A stretch of 64,000 nucleotides of DNA from Streptomyces sp. 846.5 (GTDB taxonomy: Bacteria; Actinomycetota; Actinomycetes; Streptomycetales; Streptomycetaceae), in contig NZ_SOBN01000002.1 of NCBI RefSeq assembly GCF_004365705.1, positions 310,001-374,000 on the forward strand, given 5' to 3'. A model generated the notes under the pieces. It searched no databases and was not told where the DNA came from. It saw nothing but the letters and a program-made list of their open reading frames with translations. Position numbers and translations under genes: made by a program. This document shows, in pieces, positions 33,411 through 43,590 of the stretch (the first letter of the stretch is position 1; each line of letters starts with the position of its first letter).

Positions 33411-33824
33411 GTGAGTACTCATGTGCCGGACGAAGCCCGGGTCATTCCCCTGCGCCCGCAGACTTCGCCGCCCCCTTCCGCAACGGCGACCCGCGCCCAG
33501 CAGCGCCCGGCGGGAACCCCGACGCCGCGGGCACCCCTGTGGCGCGACCTGGTCGGCGGCGTGCTGCGGCGTGAACGGCTCTCCCAGGAGCGCACGCTGA
33601 AGGATGTCGCGGAGGCGGCCCGGATCTCGATGCCGTACCTGTCGGAGCTGGAGCGCGGACGCAAGGAGGCCTCCTCCGAGGTGCTCGCGGCCGCAGCCGG
33701 GGCCCTCGGCCTGGGCCTGGGCGACCTGCTCTCACTGGCCCAGGACGAGCTGGCGCGGCCCACCCGCGCCCGGGTGGGCCGCGGCCGCACCTCGCCGTAC
33801 GACGGGCTCTGCCTGGCAGCCTGA
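33411..33824 (+). CDS. popR: PopR/ClgR-type HTH activator of clpP
   Basis: The 137-residue protein has an XRE-type HTH at about 45-105 with DVAEAARISMPYLSELERGRKEASSE, diagnostic of the ClgR/PopR family of clp-gene activators. It ends CLAA. In Streptomyces lividans, PopR activates the clpP3-clpP4 operon and is itself degraded by ClpP in a way that depends on C-terminal alanines (established knowledge, from memory). Here the gene converges on a clpP pair whose promoter carries a PopR-like site. GTG 33411 appears to be leaderless. Confidence 0.85.
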   Translation: MSTHVPDEARVIPLRPQTSPPPSATATRAQQRPAGTPTPRAPLWRDLVGGVLRRERLSQERTLKDVAEAARISMPYLSELERGRKEASSEVLAAAAGALGLGLGDLLSLAQDELARPTRARVGRGRTSPYDGLCLAA

Positions 33825-33881: not shown

Positions 33882-34484
33882 TCAGAGGAACGCGAGGCGT
33901 CGGCTCAGGACCTCGTCGGCGAGGCCGTACGCGACGGCCTCCTCGGCGGTGAGGATCTTGTCCCGGTCCATGTCCGCGCGAAGCGTCGCCACCTCGTGGT
34001 GCGTGTGCCGGGACAGGATCTGCTCGACCTGGGAGCGGATGCGGGCCATTTCCTTGGCCGCCAGGCTGAGGTCGGAGACCGTGCCCTGCCGGCCGGCGCT
34101 GGCCGGCTGGCCGAGCAGCACCCGCGCGTGCTGGAGCACGAACCGTCGCCCGGGATCTCCGCCGGCCAGCAGCACGGCCGCCGTCGACGCGGCCTGGCCG
34201 ACGCAGAAGGTGGAGATCGGCGCCTGCACGAACGACATCGTGTCGTAGATCGCCATCAGCGAGGTGTAGGAACCCCCGGGCGAGTTGAGGTAGATCGAGA
34301 TCTCGCGTTCCGGGCTCTCCGCCTCCAGGTGCAGGAGTTGCGCGATGACGACGTTGGCGACCCCGTCGTCGATCTCGGTGCCGAGGAAGACGATCCGCTC
34401 GCTCAGCAGCCGGCTGAAGACGTCGTAGGACCGCTCGCCCTGCGCGGTGCGTTCGACGACGTAGGGAACCGTGTACGAGCCCAT
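33882..34484 (-). CDS. clpP4: ClpP-family subunit lacking the catalytic histidine
   Basis: The 200-residue ClpP fold has Ser100 ([13 protein letters not shown]) and the Asp-containing [17 protein letters not shown] (171-186). At the position of the catalytic His (usually IHQP) the sequence is [11 protein letters not shown]: Gly125 replaces His, and the codon reads GGC. The subunit is therefore probably inactive on its own and may act in a mixed ring with its neighbour. It starts one base after the stop of the upstream clpP. The gene symbol rests on synteny with popR. As I recall, the GQP variant occurs in other streptomycete paralogues too. Confidence 0.85.
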
Positions 34485-34485
34485 G

Positions 34486-35124
34486 TCACAGCCCCATCCG
34501 TCGACGCGAGGAGGCCGGGCGGATGTCGGCGACCGACTCCACCACCCGGTCCACCATCCCGTACTCCTTGGCCTGCTCGGCCGTGAACCAGCGGTCCCGG
34601 TCGCCGTCGCGCGCGATCGTCTCCACGGTCTGTCCGGTGTGCTCGGCCGTGATCCGCTCGATGGCCTTCTTGGTGAACTCGAGGTTCTCAGCCTGGATCT
34701 CGACGTCCGCGACGGTGCCGCCGATGCCCGCCGAGGGCTGGTGCATCATGATCCGCGCGTTCGGCAGCGCGAAACGCTTGCCCGCCGAACCCACGGTCAG
34801 CAGGAACTGGCCCATGCTGGCTGCGAAGCCCATCGCCAGCGTCGAGACGTCGTTCGGGATGAGCCGCATGGTGTCGTAGACGGCCAGACCCGCGCTGACC
34901 GACCCGCCGGGGCTGTTGACGTACAGGCTGATGTCGGTGCGCGGGTCCTCCGCCGAGAGCAGCAGCAGCTGCGCGCAGACGCGGTTGGCCGACACCTCGT
35001 CGACCTGCGTGCCCAGGACGATGATCCGCTGGGCGAGCAACTGCGCGGCGAGATGGTCGTCGAAGCGGCTGGGCTGTGTGTCGCCGTCCTCCGCACGGGG
35101 CGGCGGCGAGGTCCATGGAGTCAT
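34486..35124 (-). CDS. clpP3: ClpP protease subunit with intact catalytic triad
   Basis: This 212-residue ATP-dependent Clp protease proteolytic subunit has Ser103 ([12 protein letters not shown]), His128 ([11 protein letters not shown]) and the Asp segment [19 protein letters not shown] (about 171-189). ClpP forms heptameric rings that degrade unfolded substrates delivered by ClpX or ClpC. It is the first gene of the clpP pair, with AGAGGAG before ATG 35124 and a PopR-like operator about 85 bases upstream. Confidence 0.92.
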
Positions 35125-36139: not shown

Positions 36140-36580
36140 TCAGCGGCGGCCGGTGGTCAGGATGAGGAGGAACTGGCCGCCGCCTGCTTCGATGTCGGCG
36201 GTGACCGGTATTCCCGGTACCAGTCGGGAGAAGCGGTCCACCAGCCAGTCCGCCGCCTCCTGGGCGTCCTTCCTGGTGGGACAGCGGCCCACCATCTCGC
36301 GGCCCCCCTTGCGCTCCAGCCTTCCGGCGACGGTGATCAGCGGCGCGGGTTCGACCACGTACAGGCGCTCGGGCCAGGCGATGACCACCTTGACCGCGCC
36401 CTTGCGGGTGTTGCAGCCGCGGTGCGCGAGCCGCTCGGCGACCTTGGCCTTGCGGTCGGCGGTACGGCTGTCGACGCTGGGCCCGCGCGGGTCGTTCACC
36501 GACATGTCGGGGTCGACCGGTTCGTCGCACACCCAGCAGCGCCAGCCGTCGCGCTCGGCCACATCATCAAGGAGAGTCAC
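36140..36580 (-). CDS. HNH-like zinc protein with degenerate catalytic site
   Basis: In the 146-residue protein, the first 60 residues follow the HNH layout: RDGWRCWVCDEPVDPD, then PSVDSRTADRKAK and RLAHRGCNTRKGAVK, giving the Cys-x-x-Cys and Cys-Asn pieces. The first His of HNH (usually VDH) is Ser (VDSR). The C-terminal half (VVIAWPERLYVVEPAPLITV) is not recognised. It is probably a non-cleaving DNA- or RNA-binding relative. GTG 36580 has TAGGTT six bases upstream (36587-36592). Confidence 0.65.
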   Translation of the reverse strand: MTLLDDVAERDGWRCWVCDEPVDPDMSVNDPRGPSVDSRTADRKAKVAERLAHRGCNTRKGAVKVVIAWPERLYVVEPAPLITVAGRLERKGGREMVGRCPTRKDAQEAADWLVDRFSRLVPGIPVTADIEAGGGQFLLILTTGRR

Positions 36581-36592: not shown

Positions 36593-36697
36593 GCCTGTTC
36601 GGCCGCCGACGTGCTGGTGCTCGCCTGTAGATGGGCAGTAGATGGGGCGCCAGCAAGGTGATGACTGTCCAAGTCAGCGCCTACCGAGGTGGTTACG

Positions 36698-36892
36698 ATG
36701 ACCCAGCACCCCAGCCCCGTGGCAGTGTCCCGTTCCAGCGTCCCGATGCGGGTTCTCGCCGGCTGCGCCGTCGCGGCGACGCTGCTGCTCGCCGGTGCCC
36801 ACGCCGCTCCTGCGGGCACCGCGCACAGCGCCGGGCAGACCGTCACCGCGGCCGCCGTCGGCCCCGACGAGTGGAACAGCGGCGGTGCCTGA
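36698..36892 (+). CDS. exported small peptide precursor (64 aa) facing the SARP gene
   Basis: The 64-residue product has a Sec-type signal (MRVLAGCAVAATLLLAGAHA, about residues 17-36), then a short Ala/Thr-rich stretch and the C-terminus VGPDEWNSGGA. GAGGTGG lies eight bases before ATG 36698. The stop is 40 bases from the convergent end of the AfsR-type regulator gene. No family is recognised. It could be a secreted signal peptide, but this is only an inference. Confidence 0.6.
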   Translation: MTQHPSPVAVSRSSVPMRVLAGCAVAATLLLAGAHAAPAGTAHSAGQTVTAAAVGPDEWNSGGA

Positions 36893-36931: not shown

Positions 36932-39900
36932 CTATCGCGCCACGGACGCGCGCTTCACCGGCGGAGGCAGCGGCGCCGCGCAGTCCTCGGCCTCCGGCAG
37001 GCCCAATCGCTCGAACAGCTCGCGGGCCTGAAGAAGACGTTCCCTCGCCCGCTCCGGATCGCCCGCCGCATGCAGCGCCCGCCCCGAGGACAGCAGGGCG
37101 CAGCCCAGATCGCGCTCGGCCGGGGAGCCTTCCAGCAGGTCCAGAGCCTGCGCCGCACGCTCGACCGCCTCTTCCGGTCGGCCCGAGACGACCAGGGTGT
37201 CCGCGATCCGGTAGAGGACCTGCGCCTCACGTCCGCGCAGACCCGCCGCACGGCACTGGTCCAGGCAGAGGGAGAACCGCTCCAGCGCCCCCTGCGGATC
37301 CCCGATCTCGTGCAGAGCCACTCCCAGGACGTACAGCGCCAGGCTCGACGCCGCCGCGTCACCGCCGCCGTCCGTGGCGATGCCCGCCAGAACCCGCTCG
37401 CAGGCGTCGACCGCCTCCTGGGGGCTGCCGCTGCGGACGCGGGCCAGGGCCGCGTTCAACCGGGTCACCCGTTCGCCGGCCAGGTGTCCCACCCGGCGGC
37501 CGAGTTCCAGCGCCTCGTCCCAGCAGGCGGCCGCCTCGGCGAAGCGGCGCAGGTACAGCGCCACCAGGCCCAGGTCGTTGAGGGCCTGACGCAGCACCAC
37601 CACGTCGTCGGCCCGTCTGCAGCGCTCCACCGCCGCCCGGGCGTTCAGCTCCGCCTCGGCCAGGCGGCCGGACTGCAGGGCCACGTTCCCGCACAGGAAC
37701 CGCGCCCGGCCTGCGGCGAGGTCGTCGCCGCACGCCTCCGCGGCCAGCGCCGCCGACCGGGCGGCCGCGGCCAGCAGCCCGTACTGCAGGTCCCGGCCGA
37801 ACGGGCTCAACGCGATCAGCAGGGTCACCGCCCGCCGCAGCGGCTCGACCCCGGCCTCGGGGACCTGCGCGACGGCCAGCTCCACCGCTGCCGCGGCGCC
37901 CTCGCACTCGGCCACGGCCCAGGCCCGCGCCTGCGCCGTGCTCCCGAACACCAGCCCCGAGTGGGCGACCGCGCCGACGCCGGCGAGCACCGAGGCGACC
38001 GGATCCCCGGGAACCGCGCAGGAGAACGCGTTCACCGCCGACGCCAGCAGGAAGCCCTGCCAGCGCGCGACGGCCCCCGCGGACTCGCTCGGCCTCTTCT
38101 GCCGGGCGAAGACCCGGAGCAGGTCGTGGAAGCTGTAGCGGCCGGGCACCGGCGACTGCAGCATGGCGGTGTCCACCAGGGACTCCAGCAGGTCCTCGGC
38201 CGTGTCCTCGTCCAGGTCCAGCACCGCCGCCGCGGTCGCCGCGCCGATGTTCGGGCCCGCCAGCGCCGCCAGCAGCCGGAAGACACGGGCGTGGGACGGC
38301 GTCAGCTGCCGGTAGCCCAGTTCGAAGACGGCCTCGATGGCCAGGTCCCCGATGCGCAGCTCTCCGATCCGGCTTCGTTCGTCGGCCAGTCGGTCGATCA
38401 GCGAGGCGATGGTCCAGCGGCGGCGGGAGGCGAGCCGGGCGGCGACGATGCGCACCGCCAGCGGCAGGTGCCCGCAGGCGTCGATGAGACGGCGGGCGGC
38501 CTCCTGCTCCGCCGCCAGCCGGTCCGCTCCGATGACCCGGCCGAGCAGGGCCAGGGCCTCCTCCGGCTCGAACACGTCCAGGTCCACGTGCAGGTCGAGC
38601 GGCAGCCCGAACAGCTGGGCGCGGCCGGTGACCAGGACGCCCACGCCCGGGGTGCCCGGCAGCAGGCAGCGCACCTGCGCGGCGTCACGGGCGCCGTCCA
38701 GGACCATCAGCACCCGGCGGCCGCTCAGCACCGACCGCAGCAGCGCGGTCCGCTCCTCGGTGCTCTGCGGCACCGCGTGTCTGGCCACACCGAGGGCGAC
38801 CAGGAACTGTGCCAGCACCATGCCTGAGTCGGCGGGGTCGGCGGACACCCCGCGCAGGTCCGCGTAGATCTGCCCGTCGGGATAGCTCGACCGCACCGCG
38901 TGCGCCACGTGCAGCGCCAGTGAGGTCTTGCCGACGCCGCCCATGCCGACCACCGCGACCACGACCGGTGCCGCGCCCCCGCCAGCTTCACCGCCACCGG
39001 AGAGGGCCGCGCACAGCTGCCCGACCAGTTCCTCACGCCCCGTGAAGTCGTGGATGGTGGGCGGGAGTTGGGCGGGGCTGACCGCTTCGGCGAGCGATCC
39101 GGGCAGGGCGTCGGTCCCGGCTTCCGGGAGCGGCGCGTCCCGGGCGGCGGCCCCGGTCTCGGAATCGGTCTGTTCCGGGTTCTCGGTCCTGCCTGGCGCT
39201 CCGGCCGCAGGCTGTGTCGCCGCGGCCGGTCGGACCGCGTGCAGCGAGGGGTCGCTCTCCAGTATTCGCTGGTGGAGCGAGAGCAGATCGGGGCCGGGGT
39301 CGATGCCCTGCTCGGAGACCAGCAGCCGTCTCAGCCCGGCGAAGACCGTCAGGGCCTCCACCTGTCTCCCGGACCGGTACAGGGCCCGCATCAGCAGCCC
39401 GTAGGGGCGCTCCCGCAGCGGAAAGCCCGCGATGAGTTCGGACAACCGGGGCACCACCCGCACATGGCCGCCCAGGTCGAGTTCGACCTCCAGCCGGTCC
39501 TCCAGCAGCGCGACCCGTATCTCGTCCAGGCGCACCCGCTGGCGCTCCGCGTAGGGGCCCGGCACTCCGGCGAGCGGTTGGCCCTGCCACAGGTCGAGTG
39601 CCTCGCCCAGGCGGGCCTCCGCCTCGTGCAGCTCCCCCAGCGCCTGGGCCCGGGACGCCTTGGCCGCCAGCTCCTCCACCAGCAGCGCGTCCACCTGTGA
39701 GCGCTTCACCGCCAGCCGGTACCCCGATCCCACGCTGGCCAGCACTCCCCCGGCGCCGGCCGCGTCGAACGCCTTGCGCAGACGCCAGGCGTAGGTGCGC
39801 ACCGTGGTCACCGCGGAGTCGGGCGCGTCGGGGCCCCAGAGGCAGTCGACCAGTTCCCCCACCGAGACCGGGTGTCCCGCCCGCAACGCCAGCACCGCCA

Positions 39901-40000
39901 GCATCGCCTGTCGCTGCGGCGGCCCCACCTCCACTCTCGTCCCCGCAGCGACCGCTTCCACCACACCGAGCATCGTGAGACGCAACGCATGCGCTGTCAC
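36932..40000 (-). CDS. AfsR/SARP-family regulator with NB-ARC and TPR domains
   Basis: This regulator is about 1,022 residues long. Domains (numbered from the GTG at 40009): OmpR-type winged helix (about 8-100, with TVRTYAWRLRKAF), bacterial transcriptional-activation domain (about 105-255, DLWQGQPLAGVPGPYAERQR), linker, NB-ARC ATPase with P-loop GMGGVGKTS (355-363) and ARDAAQVRCLLPGTPGVGVLVTGR, and TPR-like helices in the last 300 residues. AfsR-type SARPs activate secondary-metabolite genes by binding heptamer repeats near -35. I favour GTG 40000 because GGAAGG overlaps the alternative GTG 40009 too closely. It is the likely activator of the adjacent NRPS cluster. Confidence 0.9.
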   Translation of the reverse strand: MTAHALRLTMLGVVEAVAAGTRVEVGPPQRQAMLAVLALRAGHPVSVGELVDCLWGPDAPDSAVTTVRTYAWRLRKAFDAAGAGGVLASVGSGYRLAVKRSQVDALLVEELAAKASRAQALGELHEAEARLGEALDLWQGQPLAGVPGPYAERQRVRLDEIRVALLEDRLEVELDLGGHVRVVPRLSELIAGFPLRERPYGLLMRALYRSGRQVEALTVFAGLRRLLVSEQGIDPGPDLLSLHQRILESDPSLHAVRPAAATQPAAGAPGRTENPEQTDSETGAAARDAPLPEAGTDALPGSLAEAVSPAQLPPTIHDFTGREELVGQLCAALSGGGEAGGGAAPVVVAVVGMGGVGKTSLALHVAHAVRSSYPDGQIYADLRGVSADPADSGMVLAQFLVALGVARHAVPQSTEERTALLRSVLSGRRVLMVLDGARDAAQVRCLLPGTPGVGVLVTGRAQLFGLPLDLHVDLDVFEPEEALALLGRVIGADRLAAEQEAARRLIDACGHLPLAVRIVAARLASRRRWTIASLIDRLADERSRIGELRIGDLAIEAVFELGYRQLTPSHARVFRLLAALAGPNIGAATAAAVLDLDEDTAEDLLESLVDTAMLQSPVPGRYSFHDLLRVFARQKRPSESAGAVARWQGFLLASAVNAFSCAVPGDPVASVLAGVGAVAHSGLVFGSTAQARAWAVAECEGAAAAVELAVAQVPEAGVEPLRRAVTLLIALSPFGRDLQYGLLAAAARSAALAAEACGDDLAAGRARFLCGNVALQSGRLAEAELNARAAVERCRRADDVVVLRQALNDLGLVALYLRRFAEAAACWDEALELGRRVGHLAGERVTRLNAALARVRSGSPQEAVDACERVLAGIATDGGGDAAASSLALYVLGVALHEIGDPQGALERFSLCLDQCRAAGLRGREAQVLYRIADTLVVSGRPEEAVERAAQALDLLEGSPAERDLGCALLSSGRALHAAGDPERARERLLQARELFERLGLPEAEDCAAPLPPPVKRASVAR

Positions 40001-40076
40001 CGTGCCCACCCTTCCCCCCAGAGTCCGGACGACGCCTTGAGCATGCCATCCGGACCGGGCGGGCGGGTATCCTTTG

Positions 40077-40130: not shown

Positions 40131-41447
40131 TCACTGGTGCAGCAGCATCAGCTCCGGTCGGGTGACGAGGTCCGCGACCATCCGCAGGAACCCGCCGGCG
40201 GTCCTCCCGTCGCAGACGCGATGGTCGAAGGTCAGCGACAGCTGCGCGACGTCCCTGGGCACCACCTCCTCGCCCTGCGGTCCGTCGACCACCCAGGGCC
40301 GCCTGACGATCCGTCCGATCCCCAGCATCGCCGCCTGCGGCGGGTTGACCAGGGGCGTCGCGCCGTCCACGCCGAAGACCCCGTAGTTGTTGAGCGTGAA
40401 GGTGCCGCCGGCCAGCTCGTCGGCGGTCAGCTGCCCGGCACGCGCGCGGTCGACGAGGCCGCGCACCCGGGCCGCCAGCTCGACCAGCCCCGGACGGCCC
40501 GCGTCGCGCACGACCGGCACCACCAGTCCGCGCCGTCCCTGGGCCGCGAGGCCGAGGTGAACCTCGGGCAGCCGCACCAGTTCCTCGCGTTCGGTGTCCA
40601 CGCGCGTGTTGAGTTCGGGGAAGCGGGACAGCCCCAGGACGCAGATCCGCGCCAGCAGCGCGAGGATGCCGACGCGCTCGCCGCCCCCGGACGGGGCGGG
40701 CTGCCCCAGTCGGTCGCGCAGCGCCAGCAGCTCCGTCAGGTCGGCGTCGGCCCAGATGGTGACCGCCGGGATCTCCCGGTGGCTGAGGGTGTACTGGTCC
40801 ACCGCAGCCTTGAGGGCGCCGCGGATCGCGATTCGCTCACCCTCCGGCTGCGGCAGCGACGCGGTCGGCCGCGGGGCCGGCGGTGGTGACACCGTGGACG
40901 CTGTCGGCGAGCCGGAGTCGATGGCCCGCTGCACGTCGTGACGGGTGATCAGGCCGCCCGGGCCGGTGCCCGCCACAGAGGCCAGGTCCAGTCCGGCTTC
41001 GCGGGCCAGCCGCCGTACCACCGGGGAGGCGGTGACGGCGCCGCTCGCGGCGTTCACGCCGGTCGCGCGCACCGGGCCGGTCCGCGCCGCCGGGATCTGG
41101 ACCGTGCCGTAGCCGACCAGCACCTGGCCCGACCCCTCGGCGGCCTCCCGGACCGCGGGCGGCGCCACGGACCGCACCGGCTCGGGGGCGACCGTCAGCA
41201 GCGGGCGGCCGACCTCGATGAAGTCCCCCGCCTCGCCGTGCAGCCCGACCACCCGCCCGGCGAAGGGCGACGGCAGCTCGACCACCGCCTTGGCGGTCTC
41301 CACCTCCGCCACCGGCTGGTCCGTGTTCACGCTGTCGCCCACCCGGACCAGCCAGGTCACGATCTGCGCCTCGGTCAGCCCCTCGCCCAGGTCCGGGAGC
41401 AGGAACGCGGCCTCGGCGGGGTCCTGCAGCAGGGTCGTCGATTCCAT
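40131..41447 (-). CDS. 2-oxoacid dehydrogenase complex E2 (dihydrolipoyl acyltransferase)
   Basis: The 438-residue protein has one lipoyl domain (about 15-90; Lys in VAEVETAKAVVELPSP), a peripheral subunit-binding domain (ASPVVRRLAREAGLD, GPGGLITRHDVQRAI) and a catalytic domain ending in the active site TFDHRVCDGRTAGGFL. The enzyme transfers the acyl group from lipoamide to CoA. ATG 41447 shares a base with the E1-beta stop (TGATG). It is the last gene of the NRPS transcription unit. No E3 gene is present, so E3 must come from elsewhere in the genome. Confidence 0.9.
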   Translation of the reverse strand: MESTTLLQDPAEAAFLLPDLGEGLTEAQIVTWLVRVGDSVNTDQPVAEVETAKAVVELPSPFAGRVVGLHGEAGDFIEVGRPLLTVAPEPVRSVAPPAVREAAEGSGQVLVGYGTVQIPAARTGPVRATGVNAASGAVTASPVVRRLAREAGLDLASVAGTGPGGLITRHDVQRAIDSGSPTASTVSPPPAPRPTASLPQPEGERIAIRGALKAAVDQYTLSHREIPAVTIWADADLTELLALRDRLGQPAPSGGGERVGILALLARICVLGLSRFPELNTRVDTEREELVRLPEVHLGLAAQGRRGLVVPVVRDAGRPGLVELAARVRGLVDRARAGQLTADELAGGTFTLNNYGVFGVDGATPLVNPPQAAMLGIGRIVRRPWVVDGPQGEEVVPRDVAQLSLTFDHRVCDGRTAGGFLRMVADLVTRPELMLLHQ

Positions 41448-42511
41448 CAGTACTCCCACCCGAGATCGCGGACGGCCGCCAGGACCCGGCCCGGCGAGGG
41501 AAGGTGCAGGTGCTCCAGCTTCGGGGCCGGATACGGGATGTCCAGACCGCTGACCCGCCGCACCGGCGCGTGCAGGTGGTGGAAGCAGCGCTCGGTCACC
41601 CGCGCCGCGATCTCCGCGCCGACGCCCGCGAAGCCGGACGCCTCGTGGACCACCACCGCCCGGCCGGTCCGGCGGACCGAGGCGCAGACCGTCTCGTCGT
41701 CGAACGGCACCAGCGAGCGCAGGTCGACCACCTCCAGGTCGTAGCCCTCCAGGGCGGCCGCCTCGGCGGCGCCCAGGGCGGTGGCGACGCCCGCGCCGTA
41801 GGCGATCACGGTGACGTCCCGTCCCGGACGGCGCACCACCGCCCGGCCGATCGGGGGCACAGGGGCGGAGGGGTCCAGCTGGTCCTTGGACCAGTACAGG
41901 CGCTTGGGTTCGAGGAAGACCACCGGGTCGGGCGAGCTGATCGCGTGACGCAGCAGTCCGTAGGCGTCCTGGACGGTGGCGGGGGTGACCACGTGCAGGC
42001 CGGGCGTGTGCACGAAGTACGCCTCGGAGGAGTCGCCGTGGTGCTCGACCGCGCCGATGCCGCCGCCGTAGGGGATCCGGACGACCACGGGCATCGGCAG
42101 CCGCCCCTCGGTGCGGTTCCGCATCTTCGCCAGCTGGCTGACCAACTGCTCGAAGGCCGGGAAGCTGAAGGCGTCGAACTGCATCTCGACCACGGGACGC
42201 AGTCCGTACATCGCCATGCCGACGGCCACGCCGACGATGCCGGCCTCGGCCAGGGGGGTGTCGAAGCAGCGCTCCTCGCCGAGGTCGCGGGCGATGCCGT
42301 CGGTGACCCGGAAGACCCCGCCGAGCGCGCCGACGTCCTCTCCGAAGACCAGTACCCTGTCGTCGGCGCTGAGGGCGTCGCGCAGAGCGCGGTTGAGGGC
42401 CTGGGCCATCGTTGCGGTGGTCACCGTGGGGAAGGTCTCGGGGCGTGTGCCGGGCGCCGGGTGCAGTTCGGCGGCGGCCGGTATCGGCTCCGCGATCAGG
42501 ACGTCTGTCAT
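41447..42511 (-). CDS. 2-oxoacid dehydrogenase E1 component, beta subunit
   Basis: The 354-residue protein contains VLVFGEDVGALGGVFRVTDG (about 54-73), FDTPLAEAGIVGVAVGMAMYG and the C-terminal transketolase domain (VTVIAYGAGVATALGAA, HEASGFAGVGAEIAARV). It pairs with E1-alpha for thiamine-dependent decarboxylation of a 2-oxo acid (pyruvate or branched-chain). Both ends overlap neighbouring genes: ATG 42511 with the E1-alpha stop, and its stop with E2. Confidence 0.92.
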   Translation of the reverse strand: MTDVLIAEPIPAAAELHPAPGTRPETFPTVTTATMAQALNRALRDALSADDRVLVFGEDVGALGGVFRVTDGIARDLGEERCFDTPLAEAGIVGVAVGMAMYGLRPVVEMQFDAFSFPAFEQLVSQLAKMRNRTEGRLPMPVVVRIPYGGGIGAVEHHGDSSEAYFVHTPGLHVVTPATVQDAYGLLRHAISSPDPVVFLEPKRLYWSKDQLDPSAPVPPIGRAVVRRPGRDVTVIAYGAGVATALGAAEAAALEGYDLEVVDLRSLVPFDDETVCASVRRTGRAVVVHEASGFAGVGAEIAARVTERCFHHLHAPVRRVSGLDIPYPAPKLEHLHLPSPGRVLAAVRDLGWEY

Positions 42512-43590
42512 CGGTTCAGCTCCAGTTCCTGCAGTTCGACGGCCACCAGCGCGGCCTGTTCGCGGAGTTGGGGAGTGGGCGTGGCGTAGACGTGCTCGGT
42601 GAGCGCGGTCGGGTCGAGTGCGGGCTCCTGCGCCAGGCCCGCGCGCATGGCCGCGGCCAGCTCCTCGGCCTGGGCGGTGATGCGGGCGCGGGTGTCGTCG
42701 TCCAGGACGCCGGTGTGCTCCAGATGGGCCGCCAGGCGCGCGAGCGGGTCGCGGCCGCGCCATGCCTCGACCTCGTCCCGGTCGCGGTAGCGGGTGTCGT
42801 CGTCGGCGTTGGTGTGCGGCTGCATCCGGTAGGTGACCGCCTCGACCAGGGTCGGGCCGTCGCCGGCCCGGGCCCTGGCCACCGCCGCGCCGAGCGCGTG
42901 GTCGACGGCCGCCAGGTCGTTGCCGTCGACCCGCACGCCGGGCATCCCGTAGCCGGCGGCCTTGTCCACCAGCGCGGCGGCGGCCGTCTGCCGCGACAGC
43001 GGCACGGAGATGGCGAACTGGTTGTTCACCACCAGGAACACCACCGGCGCCTTGAACACCGCGGCGAAGTTCAGCGCCTCGTGGAAGTCGCCCTCGCTGG
43101 TGGCGCCGTCGCCGCACAGGGCCAGCGCCACGGTGTCGGTCCCGTCGCGCCGGGCCGCCATGGCGAGGCCCACGGCGTGCGGGAGCTGCGTCGCCAGCGG
43201 CGTGCACTGGGGGGCGGTCCGCCAGCGGCGGGGGTCGTAGCCGCAGTGGCGGTCACCGCGCATCAGCGTCAGCGCCTCCACCGGGTCGATGCCGCGCGCG
43301 ACCAGGGCCATCGCGTCCCGGTAGGTCGGGAAGAGCCAGTCGGTGGGGCGCAGCGCCAGCACCGCGCCGATCTCGCATGCCTCCTGACCGTGCGAGGACG
43401 GGTAGACGGCGAGCCGTCCCTGCCGGACCAGCGCGGTGGCCTGGACGTCGAAGCGTCGGCCGATCACCATCCGGCGGTAGCCCTCCAGCAGGCGCTGGGT
43501 CGGCAGCTCGCCCCCGGTCCTGCCGGTCGGCTCGCCGTGCTCGTCGATCAGTTGCAGCAGTCCGGCCTCCGGCCGGGTGGACACGGTCAT
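42508..43590 (-). CDS. 2-oxoacid dehydrogenase E1 component, alpha subunit
   Basis: The 360-residue protein carries the thiamine-diphosphate motif [20 protein letters not shown] (about 171-190) ending VVNNQF, and the phosphorylation-loop-like [20 protein letters not shown]. The PHT...DDxTRYR form is closer to pyruvate dehydrogenase E1-alpha than to the branched-chain HHSTSDD form, but substrate cannot be settled by eye. Its ATG (43590) overlaps the stop of the thioesterase-bearing NRPS gene (43587-43589), so expression is tied to the peptide synthetase. Confidence 0.9.

Follow-up and report, generated by a model that had tools for sequence, protein, structure and literature searches.

The peptide gene and its neighborhood

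The window, the whole stretch of 64,000 nucleotides from Streptomyces sp. 846.5 that was analyzed, contains a short peptide ORF and the gene of a large SARP regulator in convergent orientation, with stop codons 39 bp apart (Table 1). On inspection of its sequence, the peptide has a basic N-terminus followed by a hydrophobic core, from which we read it as probably exported, and its C-terminal end is VGPDEWNSGGA. The earlier note recognized no family for this peptide, and our searches bore that out: in Pfam, NCBIfam, and PHROGs all matches fell below the cut-off, as was the case for several of its relatives. The regulator matched BTAD, Trans_reg_C, NB-ARC, and TPR models (TPR_12 and others). Against the NCBIfam model for AfsR (NF053617) it scored 823.9 bits, under the curated cut-off of 1430 bits. 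Its closest relative (84%) was found in Streptacidiphilus sp. 4-A2 by a contig scan that located two loci.

Between the SARP gene and NRPS genes, which lie farther along on the same strand as the regulator, are 2-oxoacid dehydrogenase E2 and E1 genes (window 40131-43590, minus strand). Immediately upstream of the peptide promoter is an ORF of 146 aa with a CWVC pair (window 36140-36580, minus strand), for which no match was found in Pfam or NCBIfam. Two neighboring ClpP-type protease genes were also observed (window 33882-35124, minus strand), with a small HTH protein encoded beside them (33411-33824, plus strand).

Table 1. Features of the peptide-regulator locus, with positions counted from the first nucleotide of the window.
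Feature	Position	Strand	Basis or remark
SARP box TGTAGAT-gggc-AGTAGAT, direct repeat with 11-bp period	36626..36643	+	12/14 to consensus
-10-like hexamer CAAGGT	36654..36659	+	At conserved offset from box
Possible ribosome-binding site GAGGTGG	36686..36692	+	Read from sequence
Peptide ORF, 64 aa + stop, ATG start	36698..36892	+	Exported-looking propeptide
Conserved tail DEWNSGGA of the peptide	36866..36889	+	Homolog comparison
Large SARP regulator, 1025 aa, BTAD + NB-ARC + TPR	36932..40009	-	Pfam models
TPR region, approximately residues 720-1012, proposed peptide sensor	36974..37852	-	Pfam, predicted model
Codons 808-812, including Q808, N811, and D812, putative groove positions	37574..37588	-	TPR register

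Recurrence of the peptide beside one clade of regulators

The TPR half of the regulator was searched against 121 genomes of the family, which returned 59 matches; with one added locus, 60 loci were scanned for frames in convergent orientation that carry [WF]N[STNG] close to the end, preceded by a hydrophobic stretch. This automatic scan found a convergent peptide in 28 of the 33 best regulator matches, vs. none of the 26 matches at AfsR level. As controls, the reversed motif, NW, and same-strand frames each yielded 0/60, while W[QH] and W[DE] yielded 3/60 and 5/60, respectively. With a looser motif, bare WN, matches also appeared in 3 of the 26 AfsR-level rows. The automatic match in the added locus (row 59, G004) was spurious, the true tail being DWNTIVTGG. 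Three peptides were assigned by eye: in row 1 the assembly has a broken frame for the regulator, in row 9 the peptide frame continues past the motif, and in row 10 the peptide is leaderless.

A quick tree of 58 rows, in which the peptide labels include the three by-eye rows and the Mg1 locus described below, separated 34 regulators from the rest by a branch whose SH-aLRT support is 100; 32 of the 34 have the peptide. No peptide was found at G109 or G092, both inside this clade, and G109 still has Q, N, and D at the putative groove positions. At least one peptide-regulator pair was present in 21 of the 121 genomes; eight genomes have two or three pairs, with tails that differ. When a class-wide profile search was extended over 246 genomes, clade-level scores were confined to G000 and G055, and the peptide was present at both clade-level loci (2/2) and at 0 of the 28 AfsR-level loci scanned. 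Among 72,556 plasmid records, 7 matched (2 of the 7 were inspected); plasmid pSMg1-1 of Streptomyces sp. Mg1 carries an annotated hypothetical protein (WP_008741296.1) with the end EVNNTGSSFDPREKM.

The earlier note had named a lack of conservation beside related SARP genes as what would refute it, and scan and tree alike found the ORF conserved there. Because the ORF, its tail motif, its convergent position, and its promoter (described below) all recur in related genomes, it is more than a product of chance. By these comparisons, the 64-aa ORF is a genuine member of a family of short peptides that look exported, share a conserved WN tail, and are paired convergently with one clade of large SARPs that combine BTAD, NB-ARC, and TPR domains.

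Conservation and variation of the tail

Across the 32 tails compared, N is present in all 32 and is preceded by W in 29, by F in 2, and by V in Mg1, whose tail lies one column off register in the comparison. N is followed by S, N, T, or G, and then often by T and G; the residue before W varies (E, D, V, A, S, and others). Conservation thus lies in WN and onward rather than in the DEWN motif put forward in the earlier note. The G013 homolog, which is convergent with its own regulator gene and ends in TPGEWNSGGA, is identical to the window peptide over EWNSGGA. As search motifs, both DEWN and EWN..GG followed by a stop codon were abandoned: GPDEWN occurred in 5 of 394 genomes, with such a peptide in the window's own genome only, and the second pattern matched in 4 of 388 genomes, 2 of these being the true peptide.

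Across close peptide pairs the leader and linker drift and the tail core remains alike. In nine such pairs dN/dS ranged from 0.33 to 2.47 with no clear purifying selection overall, and the ratio was set aside as uninformative. The peptides of G053 and G056 contain two copies of the motif each. Two members are leaderless, a 9-aa form in G071 (C15), MKVWNNTGS, and a 20-aa form in G004, MSVGTQDWNTIVTGGSAGPR; both have a ribosome-binding site and a box upstream. Retention of the motif without a leader suggests that its target may be intracellular.

Promoter architecture and other possible outputs

The 200 bp 5' of 31 peptide starts, a set to which row 9 and Mg1 do not belong, were searched for repeats. 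Heptamers repeated with at least 6 of 7 positions matching were found at a period of 11 in 28 of the 31 promoters, and at other periods (7-24) in 5-14 of the 31. The consensus CGTWKAY-N4-CGTWKAY was derived from the same promoters on which it was scored, with 25 of 31 reaching 12/14 at spacer 4; for each spacer in the ranges 0-3 and 5-11 just 0-4 of 31 did so, and shuffled sequences did in 0.9% of cases; the period-11 test is independent of this consensus. Of the 28 boxes scoring at least 11, 25 are followed by NANNNT at a single offset, 10, compared with 0-2 of 28 for each of the other offsets tested. The box of the peptide gene is the best consensus match within the window. A strict promoter pattern had one exact match in the 9.03-Mb genome, at window positions 36627-36659, which ends 38 bp ahead of the peptide start codon; the backward pattern, used as a control, also had one match in the genome. 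Two one-mismatch SARP-box promoters (G000:C1:5533915 and 5537675) flank another large SARP in the same genome.

SARP promoters are described, in excerpted text of PMC10936776, as having repeats 11 or 22 bp apart with the 3' repeat 8 bp from the -10 element, and an excerpt of PMC5930380 gives the build of the box as a heptamer with a four-base spacer. Judged by spacing and sequence, the peptide genes have a SARP-type promoter architecture. Similar boxes occur at 17 of 18 AfsR-level loci, many of them 5' of AfsS-like genes. The box alone thus does not tell which SARP binds it, and AfsR could bind the box of the peptide gene instead of the paired SARP.

The earlier note spoke of the regulator as the cluster activator and suggested testing a synthetic peptide on NRPS expression. 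Beyond the box of the peptide gene, neither the 64-kb window nor the 17 kb that follow yielded a strong box; control of the NRPS genes is thus unsupported, and they were set aside as a direct target. In relatives, a survey of 316,529 bases from 31 regulator loci gave 42 sites that score at least 12 and have a -10 element. Besides the promoters of the WN peptides, these boxes precede short KSLK peptides ending in WYLWY in G004, G006, and G007, divergent from the WN peptide (L172 at ~6822, plus strand; L173 at ~6919, plus strand; L180 at ~4272, minus strand). KSLK and xWxxWx are given as features of atropopeptide precursors in the excerpted part of PMC11450843; the KSLK/WYLWY peptides resemble such precursors and are candidates only for SARP outputs. 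A Cys-rich short ORF behind a SARP box in G089 is likewise a candidate output only. At L155 (~7175, plus strand) a 61-aa Cys-rich ORF ending in GDGNCGCCI, perhaps a RiPP precursor, is situated behind a SARP box. A second type of exported-looking short peptide, ending in KDIPLCC or DFPACC, was seen near a SARP and behind a box (L149 7839-8054, minus strand; L150 5860-6075, minus strand; L165 at ~6314, plus strand). At L101-L117, AfsS-like proteins with repeats (e.g., KPDNFHAEGT, KPDNWHSP, or PDTWGNTG) are encoded ~160-250 bp past AfsR-like stop codons, and the boxes upstream of these AfsS-like genes are like those of the WN peptides.

The TPR half as a possible sensor

The predicted model of the TPR half has a mean pLDDT of 89.9. 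Foldseek ranked the TPR domains of eukaryotic LGN and one STAND-TPR protein highest; Rap and NprR came further down. In the VIA comparison, where the absence of a family from the list carries no evidential weight, the model matched plant TSK with a Z of 24.9, LGN with 23.6, and MalT with 20.1, as well as a phage Rap with its pheromone (Z 24.0, rmsd 4.3, 323 aligned), NprR-NprX (22.9), Rap-CSF (22.5), and PlcR-PapR (17.1). The modeled fold is compatible with that of peptide-pheromone receptors and is also like that of other TPR proteins; a function is not implied by it.

Q808, N811, D812, and others are residues which, following TPR register rules, we take to be in the groove. In the alignment, Q808 and D812 are present in 31 of 31 peptide-clade rows and H842 in 94%, as compared to 4% (Q808), 16% (D812), and 4% (H842) in an AfsR-like group of 25 rows that includes G092 (row 53), though the tree groups G092 with the peptide clade; rows 31 and 48, with translations that end prematurely, were excluded from this comparison and from the tree. 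Both groups alike conserve R768, N811, and N852. The clade-specific residues of the TPR half suggest a clade-specific ligand.

Motif distance tracks TPR distance when the other domains are held fixed (27 of 30 usable pairs taken; partial r 0.40-0.47, p 0.0005 with 2000 permutations). Distances of the DNA-binding and NB-ARC regions added nothing beyond TPR distance, and the correlation stays after near-duplicates are removed (23 pairs). The leader and linker (25 pairs) show an association with TPR distance too (partial r 0.34-0.43), and what correlation is left with the other domains is smaller (0.12-0.25). Because the leader and linker also follow TPR distance, co-inheritance of neighboring DNA may explain the covariation, and this control weakens its use as proof of binding.

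Proposed mechanism

The best reading of these observations, to which we assign a probability of roughly 0.55, is that the gene encodes an autoinducing peptide that acts as the inducer of the regulator's TPR sensor. The ORF would be the precursor of a linear autoinducer, with the active part in its C-terminal WN tail. This precursor would be exported via its signal peptide and then trimmed, and the product would re-enter the cytoplasm, probably by an oligopeptide permease. There the tail would bind the SARP encoded convergently with it, in the concave groove of the TPR region, and lift the inhibition that the NB-ARC and TPR regions impose on the SARP domain, as we infer from STAND proteins. The active SARP would drive the peptide gene from its SARP-box promoter, a positive feedback suggested by the promoter architecture; in some relatives it may also drive box-bearing neighboring genes. 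The presence of different tails in one genome suggests that these would serve as separate channels. Of the earlier note's proposal, the feedback loop from a putatively secreted peptide to the TPR-containing SARP is therefore retained, as the SARP-type promoter fits it, but control of the NRPS genes is unsupported. For AfsR, the excerpted text of PMC10936776 describes inhibition of the SARP domain by NOD and TPR, relief by ATP, and an inducer that is unknown, which leaves room for a peptide in that role.

The arrangement is like that of RRNPP systems (Rap-Phr, NprR-NprX, PlcR-PapR, Rgg-SHP), in which the gene of a short exported propeptide adjoins the gene of an intracellular TPR regulator. Here, too, the propeptide gene is located beside the putative receptor gene, as the scan found at 28 of the 33 top-scoring loci, and in its TPR half the regulator is similar to Rap, NprR, and PlcR (VIA Z 17-24). 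However, the regulator is a BTAD/Trans_reg_C/NB-ARC SARP rather than a Rap, Rgg, NprR, PlcR, or PrgX protein, the system is actinobacterial, the tail motif is different, and binding in the groove is a prediction. The leaderless communication peptides that act with RopB in Firmicutes are, in the excerpt consulted, very short signals comparable with the G071 peptide, but leaderless forms are exceptional here and the regulator family differs. NosP, another SARP, is said in the excerpted source to respond to precursor-peptide ligands; its ligand derives from the product precursor in a thiopeptide cluster, whereas the peptide described here has a separate, exported-looking gene.

Alternative explanations

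The main rival, a serious possibility that we nonetheless find doubtful, is an AfsS-like output, in which the peptide would be a small effector made by the active SARP that acts elsewhere and is not the ligand of the SARP. AfsR-AfsS of Streptomyces also combines a large SARP with a nearby small gene under the same promoter architecture, and that design recurs at the AfsS-like genes of AfsR-level loci; AfsS itself, with 63 aa and three 12-aa repeats, has a downstream mechanism that is described as unclear in the excerpted part of PMC2267785. Yet AfsS-like proteins are leaderless, repeated, and encoded in the same direction as AfsR, whereas here the peptide gene converges on the regulator gene and most members carry a signal peptide, and the paired regulator falls under the AfsR cut-off (824 vs. 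1430 bits) and outside the AfsR-like group of the tree. Similarity of the WN tails to AfsS was not significant overall: across 15 AfsS-like proteins taken together the WN-tail profile did not rise above shuffles (combined p 0.54), with p ≤ 0.05 for 2 of the proteins. The clade-specific TPR residues also argue against a mere effector, since they point to a ligand specific to the clade.

A secreted end product co-regulated by the SARP, such as a small antimicrobial, we consider improbable. It would fit a peptide that looks exported and has a fast-evolving leader, as well as the boxes that in some relatives precede RiPP-like precursors too, but the motif is common to regulators with different neighbors, no constantly adjacent modifying enzyme was seen among the loci inspected, and leaderless forms of 9 and 20 aa persist. 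Retention of the motif in those two leaderless members, and of the pairing across 32 of 34 regulators, makes it very improbable that the peptide is anchored in the membrane or acts at the cell surface without a link to the TPR, its linkage to the SARP being historical, even if the lone hydrophobic segment could be a membrane anchor and variation in leader and linker goes along with that of the regulator, as would be expected of neighboring DNA. A chance ORF without function is barely credible: spurious frames are many at high G+C, but the scan controls gave 0/60, the promoter spacing is conserved, and a homolog is annotated (WP_008741296.1).

Implications

An autoinducing peptide paired with its SARP may also be viewed as one case of a wider logic in which peptide sensing is general to large SARPs, WN peptides being exported inducers of one SARP clade, with two or three separate channels in some species, and AfsS an intracellular counterpart acting on AfsR. 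We regard this extension as unlikely. Its WN half draws on the gene pairing and the promoters, and its AfsS half on the shared promoter design and on a motif resemblance that failed the overall test. If true, it would name the missing inducer for the TPR sensor of SARPs and assign a role to AfsS.

Full-text searches of an open-licence library turned up no account of a large SARP with such a peptide partner, and from its sequence features the pair looks like a previously undescribed peptide signaling system. The peptide, paired by gene position with the regulator, offers one SARP clade a concrete candidate inducer, which can be tested with a synthetic peptide. If the peptide does act as an autoinducer, the logic of peptide pheromones would extend to Streptomycetaceae, with a possible use in switching on silent gene clusters.
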